Shown here: piece after piece, positions 2,847 to 30,892 of the stretch
How positions within the stretch are numbered: position 1 is the stretch's first letter
How the letters are laid out: the number at the start of each line of letters is the position of its first letter
DNA from: a virus
IMG/VR virus record: IMGVR_UViG_3300044998_000621
Span: 1-36,597 of that record
Strand: one strand, 5' to 3'
Length of the DNA: 36,597 nt
Made by a program: the position numbers and the translations under genes
Notes under the pieces: generated by a model
Database searches by the model: none
What the model was told of the DNA's origin: nothing
Seen by the model: only the letters and a program-made list of their open reading frames with translations

Positions 2847-3272
2847 CTATCCAACAAGCTCAAACACGAGTTTTTTCACTTTCCATTTTACATACGAGTA
2901 TGAAAAGCAAAGTGCATCTTCCCTACTGTCATAATGACATGCTCTTCTTACATCCTTAACGAAAGTGACATTATCATACCTATCGTAGGTGGCGTACCAA
3001 CCATCGACTGTTGAACTTATCCTACCGCCGTCATCGGTGACTTGTATCACCCACTTATGGATAGCCGGTTTGCCAGTAGGCGTATCAACCAACTCAAAAG
3101 TTAGTTTTTTAGGCTTTGTCTTTAGGGACTTATCGGCGTATGACATTATGTCTTTTTTCGTATCCCCCATAATAGCCTTACCTACGTCAGTAGTTAAGAG
3201 CATACGCCCCTTTTTGTTGTAAGACAGAAACCTACCGCCTTCTACTTGCATGGCCCATTTTCTAATTTTCAT
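2847..3272 (-). CDS. Two-domain repeat protein, copy B (141 aa)
   Basis: This is the paralogue of the next gene downstream, with the same two-unit layout. Unit 1 goes from RKWAMQVEGGRFLSYNKKG to KKLTFELVD and unit 2 from HKWVIQVTDDGG to WKVKKLVFELVG. Its ATG overlaps the TGA of the preceding gene as ATGA. The two copies are separated by 42 bases. The GRFLSYN motif is kept in the first unit of both copies, while the second units have drifted further. A recent tandem gene duplication on top of an older domain duplication explains the pattern. Confidence 0.78.
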   Translation of the reverse strand: MKIRKWAMQVEGGRFLSYNKKGRMLLTTDVGKAIMGDTKKDIMSYADKSLKTKPKKLTFELVDTPTGKPAIHKWVIQVTDDGGRISSTVDGWYATYDRYDNVTFVKDVRRACHYDSREDALCFSYSYVKWKVKKLVFELVG

Positions 3273-7038: not shown

Positions 7039-7359
7039 TCATGTTTCAGTCCACTCGATTTCAAAAATTGCTTCAAGTTTCGTTATTTCAACAAGATGCG
7101 CAATGTCAGATTTTTTTTTAATTCTCAGTCTGAGTTGCGCATTTTTCTTTTTCAATTCTCTGTGGCAATTCAACAATATGCTAAGCGCAGCACTGTTGAT
7201 GAAAGGCGTTCTCGTAAGATCAAGAATGATGTCTTTATCGGGCGCATCATGTATAAGCACCTCAATTGCATCAGCAAAATCAAACTCCATACCACCTTTC
7301 ACAGGTGATAAAACACTGATGATTCTATCTTGAATTTTCATTTTCAAACTGCTTACCAT
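7039..7359 (-). CDS. STAS-domain protein, anti-sigma factor antagonist-like (106 aa)
   Basis: The protein has the SpoIIAA/RsbV pattern: a strand DIILDLTRTPFINSAALSIL around residues 43-62, with Ser56 at the place phosphorylated in anti-sigma antagonists, then a helix and LRLRIKKKSDIAHLVEITKL and a final IFEIEWTE. In bacteria such proteins bind anti-sigma kinases and free a sigma factor, in a partner switch controlled by that serine. The length is normal for a single STAS domain. ATG 7357-7359 has GAGAGGGAGT. It is the last gene of the 11461 unit and lies next to promoter P6999. Whether it acts on a host anti-sigma factor is inference. Confidence 0.82.
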   Translation of the reverse strand: MVSSLKMKIQDRIISVLSPVKGGMEFDFADAIEVLIHDAPDKDIILDLTRTPFINSAALSILLNCHRELKKKNAQLRLRIKKKSDIAHLVEITKLEAIFEIEWTET

Positions 7360-7367
7360 ACTCCCTC

Positions 7368-7643
7368 TCAAAGCCACGGTGTGATTTTTATTTCTTTTGC
7401 AATTTGCGCGGCTTCAAACTGCTCATCTTTTAGCAAAGCATTGACGATTGATTTACGTGTTGCTTCTGCTATATTAACAATAAACTCAACTCTGCCTTTA
7501 TGACTTTTTATGTCAGACAAAATATGAGCCTGAATATCTATGTATTCAGATTCTGTCAGAATCGGCTTTGAAACCCTATTCATAACCGATTCTGACAGCT
7601 TGCGCATTCTGCCAATACGCCGTGCGGTAAACTCATCAAGCAT
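7368..7643 (-). CDS. Hypothetical protein (91 aa)
   Basis: The product is helical by eye (MLDEFTARRIGRMRKLSESV at the start, NIAEATRKSIVNALLKDEQF later). Its ATG lies 8 bases inside the end of the helicase gene, and it precedes the STAS gene by 8 bases. No family is recognised. The tight spacing on both sides supports it as a real gene. Confidence 0.68.
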   Translation of the reverse strand: MLDEFTARRIGRMRKLSESVMNRVSKPILTESEYIDIQAHILSDIKSHKGRVEFIVNIAEATRKSIVNALLKDEQFEAAQIAKEIKITPWL

Positions 7644-8997
7644 TGTAAACGTGAACTACTTTACTTGCGCGTGAATATGCAACATAACGACATTGATTGC
7701 GCTCGACAATTCGCTTGTTGAGTTCAATATCGATTTCGTGAATGAAAACTTCTGAGTATGTCGAACCTTGCGATTTGTGCACAGTCATCGCATACCCATA
7801 TTGAACATCAGCAAACCGTTCTTTTTCAGCGTAATATTTTTTCCACTTTTCACGGTCTTTGTCAACGATTGCTGTTTCTTTCAATGCTTTCAAATAGCGT
7901 TTGTGTGCCTTCAAACCTTCTGCTGAAAGTATATTGAAATACTCTGTGCGACCATCAGACAACATTTGCGCCGTAACATTAAATCCTGCGTATTTATCAT
8001 CAAACATTTTCTTTGTGAAATTTTTGATGATAAATTCTTCTGAGTTCTGAACAGCAGTGATTTGCTTAGTGCTCACACCATCGTCGAATGAAATCTTGAT
8101 TGGCGAATTTGCAATCATAAATTCACCAATCACAAGTTCTTCTTCAACGTCAGGATACAAAACGCTGCGAACATAATTGTTAATATTTTTCACGCGGTTA
8201 TTAGACCACGCGAGACACTTGATTGAACGTAGCGCATCATTCTTTGCAGCATTCAAAAACGCTTTTGAAATAGCTCGCAAAAACTGCACCTTTTCTTTGT
8301 AGAAATAAACTCCACCAAGTTCGTTTACATTGTTTGTTCTACTGAACGGCATTGTTGGCTTGTTCAAATTGTTACGAATGATCGTCAGGTACTTTATGAT
8401 TGGATTATCATTCGCTGTTCTGACAACTTCATCAAGTGTAACACTATCGCCTTGATCGAACGACTCGCTTTTTTCTTCACCAATTGGCGGCAACTGCGCT
8501 TCATCGCCAATGAAGATAAATTTCGTACTTGAAAAATCAGCCTGTTGTGTAATCAGCTTCATCAGGCGCTTGTCAATCATTGATGCTTCATCAACAATAA
8601 CAACGTGGGCTGTATTAGGCCGCGTTCCATGCACAGCTTCAAATTCCTGTGTCATCACGTGGCCTTCTTTATCATACTTCAATACTTGTTTAACGCCAAG
8701 GTATTGATGTATCGTCATCGTATCAAAATGCAGACCTGCTTTGTGTTGCATTTGACGAATAACATTTACGGCTTTGTTTGTCGGCGCTGTTACAGTTATC
8801 TTTAACGCGTCATTATTACAATGCGCAATGACGTGATTAATGACTGTTGTTTTTCCAGTACCTGCGTAACCTTTAAGACAAAAAAACAGTTTATCGCTAT
8901 CGATAAACTGTTTAATTGCATCAACGGCGGCGAATTGTTTTTCTGTTAGTACGATTTGATTTTGATTTTGCATTTGTGTTGCTGATGTTTGGTTCAT
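7636..8997 (-). CDS. Dda/RecD-like SF1B DNA helicase
   Basis: The 453-residue protein has the superfamily 1B motifs in order: Walker A GYAGTGKTT (43-51), motif II VIVDEASMID (133-142), motif III FIGDEAQLPPIG (162-173), then VHKSQGST (406-413) and YVAYSRASK (437-445). The size and short N-terminus match T4 Dda, a 5'-3' helicase that helps start replication and clears proteins from DNA. I start it at ATG 8995-8997, with GGTGAGG nine bases upstream. This lies 77 bases inside the preceding gene. An in-frame later Met (residue 9) would lessen the overlap only slightly. Confidence 0.92.
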   Translation of the reverse strand: MNQTSATQMQNQNQIVLTEKQFAAVDAIKQFIDSDKLFFCLKGYAGTGKTTVINHVIAHCNNDALKITVTAPTNKAVNVIRQMQHKAGLHFDTMTIHQYLGVKQVLKYDKEGHVMTQEFEAVHGTRPNTAHVVIVDEASMIDKRLMKLITQQADFSSTKFIFIGDEAQLPPIGEEKSESFDQGDSVTLDEVVRTANDNPIIKYLTIIRNNLNKPTMPFSRTNNVNELGGVYFYKEKVQFLRAISKAFLNAAKNDALRSIKCLAWSNNRVKNINNYVRSVLYPDVEEELVIGEFMIANSPIKISFDDGVSTKQITAVQNSEEFIIKNFTKKMFDDKYAGFNVTAQMLSDGRTEYFNILSAEGLKAHKRYLKALKETAIVDKDREKWKKYYAEKERFADVQYGYAMTVHKSQGSTYSEVFIHEIDIELNKRIVERNQCRYVAYSRASKVVHVYNA

Positions 8998-9322
8998 CTT
9001 TTTTTGCCTCACCTGTCTGAAATTGTTTCACGTGCTCATCACAATATGGAACATAGCCGATATAGCCCGACTTTTTCTTATAGTGCGCAAGTGTTGTTGC
9101 TTGCTTACCACAAACATTACACTTGATTGATGAAAGTTTTTCGAGTGAAAAAACTTGTGGCTTATCAAAATAACGCTCTGCGTCAATATCGACACCAGCG
9201 TCTTTCATGTATTCAGAAAACCGTTTGAGTTCATCATCAGTGAACCTTATCACATTCATGCCGCGCTCGACTTCAAACAACAGCTTTGCTGTTTTTCTTT
9301 TCTTCTTAAACAATCCTAACAT
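8921..9322 (-). CDS. Zinc-finger-like small protein (133 aa)
   Basis: ATG 9320-9322 has GTGAGG nine bases upstream, overlapping the end of the preceding gene by 17 bases. A possible zinc site is CNVCGKQAT near residue 69, completed by YCDEHVK near residue 93. The N-terminus is basic (MLGLFKKKRKTAKLL). The last 30 residues are Ser/Asn/Lys/Arg-rich, unstructured by eye, and overlap the start of the helicase gene. A nucleic-acid-binding helper of the helicase is possible but only from position. Confidence 0.68.
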   Translation of the reverse strand: MLGLFKKKRKTAKLLFEVERGMNVIRFTDDELKRFSEYMKDAGVDIDAERYFDKPQVFSLEKLSSIKCNVCGKQATTLAHYKKKSGYIGYVPYCDEHVKQFQTGEAKKDEPNISNTNAKSKSNRTNRKTIRRR

Positions 9323-9644
9323 TTTCAATAACCTCACTTTGTTTTTTTATTTTTTCCAATTGTGACTTCAACTCAAACTGAGTTTTGCGCATCTGCTGAT
9401 ATTGAGACAACAGCGTTTTAATTTTCGCCATCGCATCATCAAATTTCAAAATAGAAACCTCGTCAGCAATTATACGTATAGTTATTTCATAACTACCCCA
9501 GTCTGCAATTTCACCAAGTGGAATTGATGAGCGCAAATCAAAAAAACGCAACTCTCTCTGCAAATCATTTTTCAAATTTTGAATTGCTAATCCAATATCT
9601 GTAATTTCGTTAATGAGTTGCGCTTTGTCTTTGGTTACAATCAT
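9306..9644 (-). CDS. Coiled-coil hypothetical protein (112 aa)
   Basis: The start overlaps the stop of the HDAC-like gene as ATGA, with AGGTTATCT upstream. Two long heptad-like helices are visible: residues about 8-35 (AQLINEITDIGLAIQNLKND) and about 75-105 (IKTLLSQYQQMRKTQFELKS). A short beta part lies between them. The function is unknown; a dimeric partner of the adjacent enzyme is possible. Confidence 0.68.
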   Translation of the reverse strand: MIVTKDKAQLINEITDIGLAIQNLKNDLQRELRFFDLRSSIPLGEIADWGSYEITIRIIADEVSILKFDDAMAKIKTLLSQYQQMRKTQFELKSQLEKIKKQSEVIENVRIV

Positions 9645-10783
9645 AGATAACCTGCAACGATTTCAATTATCAAATCTGCTTTTGTATCTTCATCGTATGT
9701 GTCATCGCGCAAAACATCAAGTATTTCTGATTTTGCTGCGCTCAGATGATCTACCAAGGTTGATGTTGCACTCTCTCGTTCGAGCAAATCAAAATCAAAA
9801 TCGTTAGGCAATGAATCGATAGGCAAATTGCGCTGCATTCCATCATACGATCTGATTGTATCAGACTTGAAAAGCAAACGCTTTTCCCAAAAGCCTGAAT
9901 CAACAACATGGCGCATAATATCAGCATCAACACCATCGACGAACACATTGATTGATGCGATAAAACTGTTAATATGTCCAACCAGCACAGGCTCTATTAT
10001 ATCAAGATGGTGTTCTGCAATTTCCTGCTCAGTCAGTCTTGCATAACCACCTGCAAGATTCAGAACAATCGGTACGCGGTATTCTTTCGCAACAGCACAT
10101 ATCATGTATGTGCGTTCATACAGTTCTTGATAGGTTAAGCCACCACCAAGCGTATCGAATTTGTACGCATCAAGACCGTCTTGAAACAAAATAATATCTG
10201 GTCTGAATCTTTCGATGCGCTCGGTAAGATTTTCTGCTGCTGCACTTGCACGCACTCTGCCTGCATAACTGACATACTCAAAATCAGAATCATCTTTTGT
10301 GCAAGCAACAGTGCCATCACCAAAGTGCGCATCGCCATCGACGATTAAAATGCGCTGTGCAAGTTTTTTCTTACGCAGCATTCTGCCTGTTATCGATAAT
10401 CCTTCAAACGTGCAAAAGCCACCACCATGATTAGGGTGTGCATGATGAAAGCCTGAACAGAACGCCCACGCAACGCCATCACGCAATGCTTGAACGGCAG
10501 CACAATATTCTGCGCCGACGATATACGGCAATGCAGAAGCGACTTCCATCAAATTGTTGCCAAATCCATTTTTGAATACACAATCGAGAACGCCATCAAC
10601 ATACTCAGCCGTATGTGATAACATAATGTCTGCACGTGACACAGGTTTGACGCGTTGCGCCTGCATAGGCAATGCCAAACGCTGCACTCGCTCATGCAGT
10701 TTTTTTGGTTTCAATGGTGACAGACTAAAGCTGTCAGCATCAGCAATCATTTTGTCATCGTAAAAATATGATATTTTTTTCAC
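9641..10783 (-). CDS. Histone-deacetylase-family (HDAC/AcuC/acetylpolyamine amidohydrolase-like) enzyme
   Basis: The 380-residue protein carries the whole zinc-hydrolase active site of the arginase/deacetylase fold. GFHHAHPNHGGGFCTF (111-126) contains the paired catalytic His113-His114. IVDGDAHFGDGT (147-158) supplies the zinc ligands Asp151 and His153. FQDGLDAYKFDTLGGGLT (200-217) supplies Asp205, and AGGYAR contains the transition-state Tyr247. Such enzymes remove acetyl groups from lysines or polyamines. I start it at GTG 10781-10783, with AAGGAAAGCT upstream, overlapping the TGA of the 51-aa zinc-knuckle gene as GTGA. A longer TTG-started frame lies inside that gene. The substrate in an infected cell is unknown. 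Confidence 0.93.
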   Translation of the reverse strand: MKKISYFYDDKMIADADSFSLSPLKPKKLHERVQRLALPMQAQRVKPVSRADIMLSHTAEYVDGVLDCVFKNGFGNNLMEVASALPYIVGAEYCAAVQALRDGVAWAFCSGFHHAHPNHGGGFCTFEGLSITGRMLRKKKLAQRILIVDGDAHFGDGTVACTKDDSDFEYVSYAGRVRASAAAENLTERIERFRPDIILFQDGLDAYKFDTLGGGLTYQELYERTYMICAVAKEYRVPIVLNLAGGYARLTEQEIAEHHLDIIEPVLVGHINSFIASINVFVDGVDADIMRHVVDSGFWEKRLLFKSDTIRSYDGMQRNLPIDSLPNDFDFDLLERESATSTLVDHLSAAKSEILDVLRDDTYDEDTKADLIIEIVAGYL

Positions 10784-10935
10784 AGCTTTCCTTTTCCCCC
10801 ACAATTTGAACACTTCACACGCATCGGCCAATAACCATTTTTACCTTTGCCTTTACAAACCGGACATGGAAGCGTTATTCGTGCATTCACGTCTTTGCGC
10901 GGCTTTAATTTCTGCATTATCGCTTTCATGTTCAT
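10780..10935 (-). CDS. Zinc-knuckle mini-protein (51 aa)
   Basis: A short frame starts at ATG 10933-10935 with AGAGG six bases upstream and ends in a TGA overlapping the GTG start of the HDAC-like gene. It has two CxxCxGKG motifs, CPVCKGKGK near residue 24 and CSNCGGKGK near residue 42, separated by NGYWPMRVK. This is the layout of a single DnaJ-type zinc site. The product is translationally coupled to the deacetylase-like enzyme, which hints at a shared role. Its first 83 bases overlap the end of the ribbon-helix-helix gene in another frame. Confidence 0.75.
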   Translation of the reverse strand: MNMKAIMQKLKPRKDVNARITLPCPVCKGKGKNGYWPMRVKCSNCGGKGKL

Positions 10936-30302: not shown

Positions 30303-30335
30303 ATATATGCACAAATTAGCGTGGTTTAGTACCAC
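30303..30335 (-). promoter_or_regulatory. Phage promoter P30267 (GTGGTAC-N15-TGTGCATATAT)
   Basis: GTGGTAC (30329-30335) and TGTGCATATAT (30303-30313) keep the 15-base spacing. The predicted start at A30298 leaves a 31-base leader with a Shine-Dalgarno site before the membrane-protein ATG. Unlike other copies, the upstream box and the spacer are part of a perfect inverted repeat, and they overlap the end of the sigma factor gene. Confidence 0.82.
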
Positions 30336-30341
30336 GCTAAT
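30315..30341. repeat. Perfect 11-bp inverted repeat over promoter P30267
   Basis: ATTAGCGTGGT (30315-30325) and ACCACGCTAAT (30331-30341) are exact reverse complements around a five-base loop TTAGT. The repeat covers the TAA stop of the sigma gene, the upstream promoter box and most of the spacer. It could be an operator for a dimeric protein, an RNA hairpin ending the sigma-factor unit, or both. No long U-run follows on the minus strand (only TTTG). Confidence 0.75.
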
Positions 30342-30892
30342 CGATTTTTTTCGGTTTTTGTCCACTCAGCAGCCATCATTCTGATCGATGATATGATACG
30401 CATGACTGTGCTTTCTGACACGCGCAAAACTTCTGCGGCCTTTTGTTTAGTCAAATAGCCATAGAGCGTCGTCGCGTTGATGTAACGAATTTCGTTATAG
30501 CGTTTCTGTTTACGCAAAAACTCGACAAACGATTCAATCACTGCCTCGTTTTCAATCTGTTCAAGTGACTTGTCCGGCGCTGAAAAATATTCAGCAGATA
30601 CTGTAGCTTCCAACAGATTTTTTTTGGTATTCGCTTCACGATGCAGTGTCTGAAAAAATCGCTTAATGCCTTGTTCAGCAAGACGCGCGACATACGTTTG
30701 TATCGCAGCTTTATCGATGTCAAATGAACCGATGTGCGCATAGACGTACAACAGCGTTTCTGAATATAACTCGTCGTAAAACGCCGTGTCCATTGCAGTA
30801 CGCTTTCTTGCATAATAACGAACCTGACTTTTAATAATCGCGCCGTACTCTTGGGCCAACGCGTTTGCTTTTGTTATGTTTTTTATTTTCAT
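30326..30892 (-). CDS. Sigma-70-family (ECF-like) RNA polymerase sigma factor
   Basis: This 188-residue protein has a sigma region 2 from about residue 16 to 85 (AIIKSQVRYYARKRTAMDTA, then YDELYSETLLYVYAHIGSFD and AIQTYVARLAEQGIKRFFQT). Region 4 lies near the end (LTKQKAAEVLRVSESTVMRI), a typical helix-turn-helix for the upstream promoter box. Regions 1 and 3 are lacking, as in ECF sigma factors. It should direct host core RNA polymerase to phage promoters. The best candidate target is the repeated RTGRYAC-N15-TGTGCATATAY element of this window. Its own unit lacks a full copy of that element. Confidence 0.83.
   Translation of the reverse strand: MKIKNITKANALAQEYGAIIKSQVRYYARKRTAMDTAFYDELYSETLLYVYAHIGSFDIDKAAIQTYVARLAEQGIKRFFQTLHREANTKKNLLEATVSAEYFSAPDKSLEQIENEAVIESFVEFLRKQKRYNEIRYINATTLYGYLTKQKAAEVLRVSESTVMRIISSIRMMAAEWTKTEKNRLAWY

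Follow-up and report, generated by a model that had tools for sequence, protein, structure and literature searches.

An HDAC-fold zinc deacylase gene in an uncultured virus belongs to an apparently distinct subfamily shared by phages and bacteria

The 36,597-nucleotide virus record IMGVR_UViG_3300044998_000621, analysed over its whole length and referred to here as the window, encodes on its minus strand at 9641..10783 a 380-residue protein with the fold of the histone deacetylases (HDACs) and an intact zinc site. Its open frame, a Pfam match, an AF2 model, a Foldseek search, a family alignment and a tree together assign it to a group of putative zinc deacylases that we call SPS, a name coined here from the L1 motif SPSAxKP. 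The explanation that we prefer, and hold tentatively as a whole, is that SPS proteins are stand-alone zinc deacylases whose acylated substrate is small or in some other way non-peptidic, and that they have been kept in many phages as well as on bacterial chromosomes. In the part of this explanation that concerns the catalytic class, by contrast, we have high confidence.

The gene is a single uninterrupted frame of 380 codons followed by a TGA stop. Its GTG start at 10783 shares bases with the TGA stop of the upstream gene (GTGA), and a Shine-Dalgarno-like stretch, AAGGAA, lies 4 bases ahead of it at 10788-10793; initiation from the TTG at 10831 is less likely. The product matches the Pfam family Hist_deacetyl (PF00850) with E=3.6e-32 and 112.3 bits, against a cut-off of 27.9, and searches of PHROGs and NCBIfam returned no match to it. 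An AF2 model computed from an alignment of 30 family members has a mean pLDDT of 86.7, mostly exceeds 90 up to residue 280, and is disordered only at 300-336. The best PDB matches found for this model by Foldseek were all HDACs, which places it in the arginase/deacetylase fold, and its closest structural neighbours were Vibrio cholerae HdaH and Leptospira HDAC11. Model and alignment also delimit a C-terminal extension of ~95 residues (9644..9928, minus strand), acidic in composition (22 D/E, 10 K/R), flexible and then helical, and far longer than in nearly all relatives.

The sequence-only reading had named H113, H114, D151, H153, D205 and Y247 as the active-site residues of an HDAC-like protein, and all six stand in the PF00850 gene at the numbering that it gave. 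Its description of the product as an HDAC-like amidohydrolase whose zinc site is intact is likewise borne out by the Pfam match, the model and the conservation of these residues across the family, which we assessed in an alignment of 123 non-redundant members, the window protein included and an AcuC record left out. On the minus strand, F112-H113-H114 (10442..10450) comprise the foot-pocket gatekeeper Phe and the catalytic double His; both histidines are invariant in 123/123 rows, and F112 is Phe in 119 of them. The zinc ligands of D151-A152-H153 (10325..10333) are equally invariant (D151 and H153 in 123/123 rows), as is the third ligand, D205 (10169..10171), and the catalytic Tyr of the AGGY motif, Y247 (10043..10045), is Tyr in 51/52 phage rows, the remaining row having a gap, and in 71/71 bacterial rows. 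Relatives were retrieved by FCTF(S/N/E)G(L/Q) and by FCTFNGL / P..(W/F).LAGGY stretches, patterns that inflate the conservation at F123-G128; Y247, included in one of the two bacterial patterns, is inflated likewise in some of the bacterial rows, and the other five catalytic residues were in no pattern. No relative in which the six residues align (51/51 phage, 71/71 bacterial) has lost any of them, so that the mutated sites which the same reading had named as evidence against an active enzyme did not appear.

This conservation is set against considerable divergence of the window protein itself, whose best identity to a relative is 41% and whose end branch measures 1.77-2.49. The family has 56 columns conserved at 90% or more, of which the window protein keeps 45; the losses comprise 11 of the 50 non-catalytic positions and 0 of the 6 catalytic ones. 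Because the catalytic residues are all kept while 11/50 other conserved positions have changed, the pattern points to a zinc deacylase still selected for catalysis, and on these residues the protein is very probably active. Given its pocket-side departures from the family consensus (A202D, A204L, H207Y, P211T and W241L), its substrate could differ from that of the rest of the family.

To place the family, we built a quick tree that also held canonical PF00850 paralogues from 20 bacterial genomes carrying a relative. In this tree, which has no bootstraps, contains 4 HDAC11-like rows and leaves out genuine cluster-4 acetylpolyamine amidohydrolase (ApaH) sequences, the window protein, on a long branch, forms one clade with the other phage and bacterial relatives (SH-aLRT 99). 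The SPS clade is sister to HDAC11-like class IV, the two sides being separately supported (99 and 95), and SPS and class IV together are split from class I/II and AcuC with a support of 99. The phylogeny proposed by the earlier reading thus yields neither an AcuC nor a class II affiliation, and the window protein falls beside the class IV clade rather than inside it. The signatures of the subfamily are SPSAxKP, NGFGN, SGFHHA, FCTFNGL and YQAGADPH; in the window protein we find S-x-S-x-x-K-P, NGF, GFHH, FCTFxGL, Q-x-G-x-D, LAGGY and a shortened segment between H153 and D205 where class I/II and AcuC proteins have a full-length one. Phage and bacterial members are interleaved, with at least three label changes forced by well-supported branches and 14 on the best tree, and this interleaving implies repeated gene exchange between phages and bacteria. 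Bacterial enzymes have been divided into five clusters, the fifth with sub-clusters 5a-5g (Graf et al. 2024, PMC11532494). Compared with class I/II, AcuC and HDAC11-like sequences, SPS is apparently a distinct and uncharacterised subfamily.

Among known systems, class IV or bacterial cluster 5 (HdaH, 9gkv/9gky; Leptospira HDAC11, 9gz5; human HDAC11) has the same fold and zinc site as SPS, and shares with it xGF/xGYHH without RPP, xGGY, an RD after the D-x-LG element, and the sister position in the tree. The two differ in that SPS forms its own supported clade, has FCTFNGL rather than FCxFND, and is ~10-20 residues shorter before the third zinc ligand. AcuC (cluster 2c) has PF00850 and the six catalytic residues in common with the window protein, but belongs to a different clade and keeps a longer H153-D205 segment, and SPS genes lack the acuA-like acetyltransferase neighbour. 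ApaH (cluster 4) and HDAC10 share the PF00850 catalytic core with SPS. The ApaH/HDAC proteins of giant viruses (Klosneuvirus, Tupanvirus, Hyperionvirus, Yasminevirus) are virus-encoded HDAC folds too, but their hosts are eukaryotic and as structural matches they are ~14-18% identical to the window protein. Finally, gp202 of Rhodococcus phage E3, a named phage copy annotated as 'putative histone deacetylase', is an early-branching member of the same clade (99); its H153-D205 spacing is 72, and it is ~31% identical to the window protein.

The features that set SPS apart lie largely on the substrate side of the pocket. The segment between H153 and D205 (10172..10324, minus strand) spans 52 residues in the window protein. 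Most relatives have 57-66 here, AcuC has 87 and HDAC11-like proteins have about 75, the last figure counted from a structural-match alignment; family members in the 20 genomes leave a gap at about positions 163-210 of the Pfam profile. The corresponding segment of class I/II HDACs, ahead of the third ligand, forms one wall of the acyl-lysine tunnel (HDAC8 Phe208), and alignment and spacing suggest that this wall is shortened in SPS. The position that we take to be equivalent to the HDAC10 gatekeeper Glu274 is Leu212 in the window protein and L/Y/F/V/H, never Glu, in the family. Region 57-113, read with no cluster-4 sequence aligned directly, is short and shows no L2 polyamine-specificity insertion. 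With no gatekeeper Glu and no L2 insertion seen, HDAC10-type polyamine activity is unlikely.

At the entrance to the pocket, the L1 motif FSLSPLKP (10706..10729, minus strand; FSPSAxKP in the family) occupies the place of the HPFDAxKW of HDAC11 clade B (PMC13325672), in a comparison whose HDAC11 register was set by hand. The L2 rim, NGFGN (10556..10570, minus strand), carries no acidic residue at the place of HDAC8 Asp101 or HDAC11 clade B Glu94; positions 72-77 are acidic in 0/0/0/8/2/0 of the 123 rows, with a register uncertain by one residue. This acidic rim residue grips the peptide backbone, and its loss is linked to loss of peptide activity; class IV clade A enzymes, which lack a Glu94 equivalent, show no peptide activity, and non-peptidic substrates have been proposed for them (PMC13325672). 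The missing residue is part of the case for a non-peptidic substrate of SPS. Against that choice, the Phe gatekeeper at F112 is of the clade B type, which goes with peptide defatty-acylases (PMC13325672). SGFHH stands where the RPP motif, a criterion for robust deacetylases (PMC11532494), would be. On these alignments, canonical peptide deacetylation by SPS is less likely.

HDAC genes had been called rare in phages. Among named phages this holds: a tblastn search of 50,697 phage records recovered Rhodococcus phage E3, the huge-phage records LR756501/503, LR756504 and LR756511, and three Staphylococcus records. Among uncultured phages it does not, since an alignment-based scan of IMG/VR yielded 148 HDAC-encoding stretches, and surveys confined to named phages would miss most phage HDACs. 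GTDB genomes contributed a further set of 409 HDAC-encoding stretches. No papers on phage HDACs were found in the literature searched, and the words phage and virus are absent from the main texts of PMC11532494 and PMC13325672; in the papers searched, phage HDAC-fold enzymes are essentially undescribed. The two longer Staphylococcus hits, in phages SA 1306 Kay (L004) and UPMK_1 (L006), were put aside because their AcuC-type sequence and spacing make carry-over of a host AcuC probable. These records seem to hold the host acuC, probably by assembly carry-over, and in L004, though not in both, an acuA-like GNAT gene lies directly upstream. In LR756511 (L007:4947-5857) the HDAC is spread over two overlapping frames, through a frameshift, a sequencing error or recoding. 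Conversely, certain loci labelled bacterial may be phage contigs inside MAGs; one of them (L091) has the same type of MoxR gene as a phage locus (L012). The gammaproteobacterial genome G001, which holds locus L092, apparently has three SPS-type HDAC copies in addition to canonical ones.

Across the other phages the HDAC gene has no fixed partner. Recurrent neighbours are ThyX (3), a YfbR/DatZ-like HD protein (3), thymidylate synthase, thymidylate kinase and NadM-Nudix, and in one phage clade the gene lies within a cluster of PurZ-like, MazZ-like, DatZ-like HD and family-A polymerase genes. Such a set is the kit of 2-aminoadenine (Z) genomes. The loci with this Z-type cluster are L050, L057, L062, L069, L072, L077 and L079 with their near-copies, and a zinc-ribbon protein recurs directly upstream in them. 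Around the bacterial copies (L088-L167), gene densities within 2 kb of the HDAC exceed those farther out 6.4-fold for WYL/HTH regulators (17 vs 5 genes), 5.5-fold for ADP-ribosylglycohydrolases (4 vs 1) and 9.7-fold for a Nudix-linked family (7 vs 1), counts from related loci, partly MAG contigs with mechanical gene calls, that serve as leads only. The Nudix-linked family is 103 residues long (L139:353-661) and has no Pfam match. A macro-domain gene overlaps one bacterial HDAC copy, and another is flanked by an IetA-like AAA ATPase (PADLOC 1e-46) and a DUF2779 protein (L117:5816-7978, 8892-10394). In Lysobacterales the gene has a HemN-type radical SAM gene and one of the Ham1/RdgB type close by, neighbours by which we judge it to be chromosomal. 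The idea that the HDAC is itself a known defence gene was discarded, as PADLOC returned no defence model for the window protein or for three bacterial relatives.

The window locus has its own surroundings. Upstream of the HDAC are a ribbon-helix-helix (RHH)/NikA-like gene and a gene for a 51-residue zinc-knuckle mini-protein (CPVCKGKG...CSNCGGKG; 10780..10935, minus strand), which overlaps the HDAC start through GTGA. Downstream, a 112-residue probable coiled-coil protein (9306..9644, minus strand) overlaps the HDAC stop through ATGA and is followed by a CxxC protein gene and then a Dda-like helicase. The coupling to the zinc-knuckle and coiled-coil genes that had been proposed from the sequence is real insofar as both 4-nucleotide overlaps exist, but the functional unit drawn from it, with these or with the RHH neighbour, was abandoned because 36 of the 59 gene junctions in the window (61%) overlap in the same way, and because no homologue of the zinc-knuckle, coiled-coil, RHH or CxxC protein occurs in the 166 other HDAC-bearing loci. 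The virus is an orphan within IMG/VR, where single-protein scans with its HDAC, terminase, DnaE, RecA and Dda-like helicase found no close kin; its terminase is ~25% identical to SPO1-like terminases, and the 36.6-kb record is probably a fragment. Its genes include an SPO1-like terminase, DnaE, RecA-like and SbcCD-like proteins, a primase and DnaB, and every clear gene reads from the minus strand, with a uniformly negative GC skew over 1-36597. A STAS-domain protein (PF01740, E=9e-9) is encoded at 7039-7377, two genes downstream of the helicase, and a sigma-70 region 2-like protein (E=1e-5), possibly a phage sigma factor, at 30326-30892. Two adjacent, similar proteins of 141-142 residues (2376-2804 and 2847-3272) have the look of a tandem duplication and no Pfam match.

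Other readings of the enzyme were weighed against these data. It is possible, though we doubt it, that the protein works during infection as a lysine deacetylase or short-chain deacylase, undoing the acetylation of host or phage proteins. Fold and site are as such an enzyme would have them, and acyl-lysine peptides are substrates of classical deacylases from several bacterial clusters (PMC11532494). The acetyl-lysine substrates suggested by the sequence-only reading keep that much of their footing but are weakened by the family-wide lack of the acidic residue (Asp101/Glu94) that holds the peptide backbone; the shortened tunnel-wall segment speaks against them as well, as does the absence of any acetyltransferase among the recurrent neighbours of SPS genes, unlike the acuA-acuC arrangement. 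The lack of a Glu94 equivalent at the rim, together with an L1 that is not HPFD, similarly makes it unlikely that SPS enzymes remove long-chain acyl groups from lysine in the manner of HDAC11 clade B or V. cholerae HdaH, for in HDAC11 mutation of Glu94 mostly lowers defatty-acylase activity (PMC13325672). This reading draws on the closest solved structures, HdaH with decanoic acid and Leptospira HDAC11, and on the Phe gatekeeper and the SGFHH in place of RPP (PMC11532494, PMC13325672). Very unlikely is an acetylpolyamine amidohydrolase, with the spermidine it releases going to packaged DNA or to translation. Giant-virus enzymes have this activity (PMC9992855), and acetylated polyamines were among the substrates proposed by the sequence-only reading, but that proposal is opposed by the missing gatekeeper Glu (Leu212), by an L2 region in which no insertion is seen and by the lack of any grouping with class I/II in a tree without genuine cluster-4 ApaH, and outside Imitervirales a published search turned up no viral ApaH homologues (PMC9992855). 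We give the least credence to a catalytically decayed protein or non-enzymatic scaffold: a long branch, losses near the pocket and the example of HDAC11 clade A enzymes without peptide activity (PMC13325672) would suit decay, which is opposed by the retention of every catalytic residue in the midst of change elsewhere.

The neighbourhoods bear on two further readings. A counter-defence enzyme would strip the acyl group from a molecule of host defence or signalling, or undo acylation by a host GNAT-type toxin. Carriage by many phages without a fixed partner would suit such an enzyme, and the WYL, ADP-ribosylglycohydrolase, Nudix and macro genes beside bacterial copies are themes of conflict islands (PMC9122601). 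With no PADLOC defence model matching the enzyme, and with the Lysobacterales copy in its chromosomal HemN-type and Ham1/RdgB-type neighbourhood, such a counter-defence role appears improbable. Somewhat easier to entertain, if still unlikely, is that SPS acts on a nucleotide- or ADP-ribose-linked substrate in WYL-regulated stress or conflict cassettes of bacteria, and was taken up by phages, including Z-genome phages, to manage the same metabolite during infection. A substrate of this type is weakly suggested by the gene neighbourhoods, but phages often carry nucleotide genes in any case, and the window shows no partner of the ADP-ribose or nucleotide-synthesis kind.

Returning to the preferred reading of SPS as a stand-alone deacylase of non-peptidic substrates, catalysis would follow the usual HDAC mechanism, in which a zinc-activated water acts with the His pair and the intermediate is stabilised by Tyr. 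The bond cleaved would be an amide or another acyl bond, possibly an ester, in a substrate that is small or non-peptidic in another way and may be linked to a nucleotide or to ADP-ribose. The enzyme would be delivered early in infection and would alter the metabolite pool of the host, acting alone rather than in complex with the products of neighbouring genes.

The enzyme class is a familiar one; what is new is its distribution, its altered pocket and the question of its substrate. The SPS signatures provide testable features that separate this clade from peptide and polyamine deacylases. SPS also offers a handle on the non-peptidic substrates of HDACs, a question that it shares with HDAC11 clade A. 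That one clade is common to dozens of phage lineages and to bacteria, with catalysis kept amid divergence, suggests that zinc deacylation is useful in many infections.
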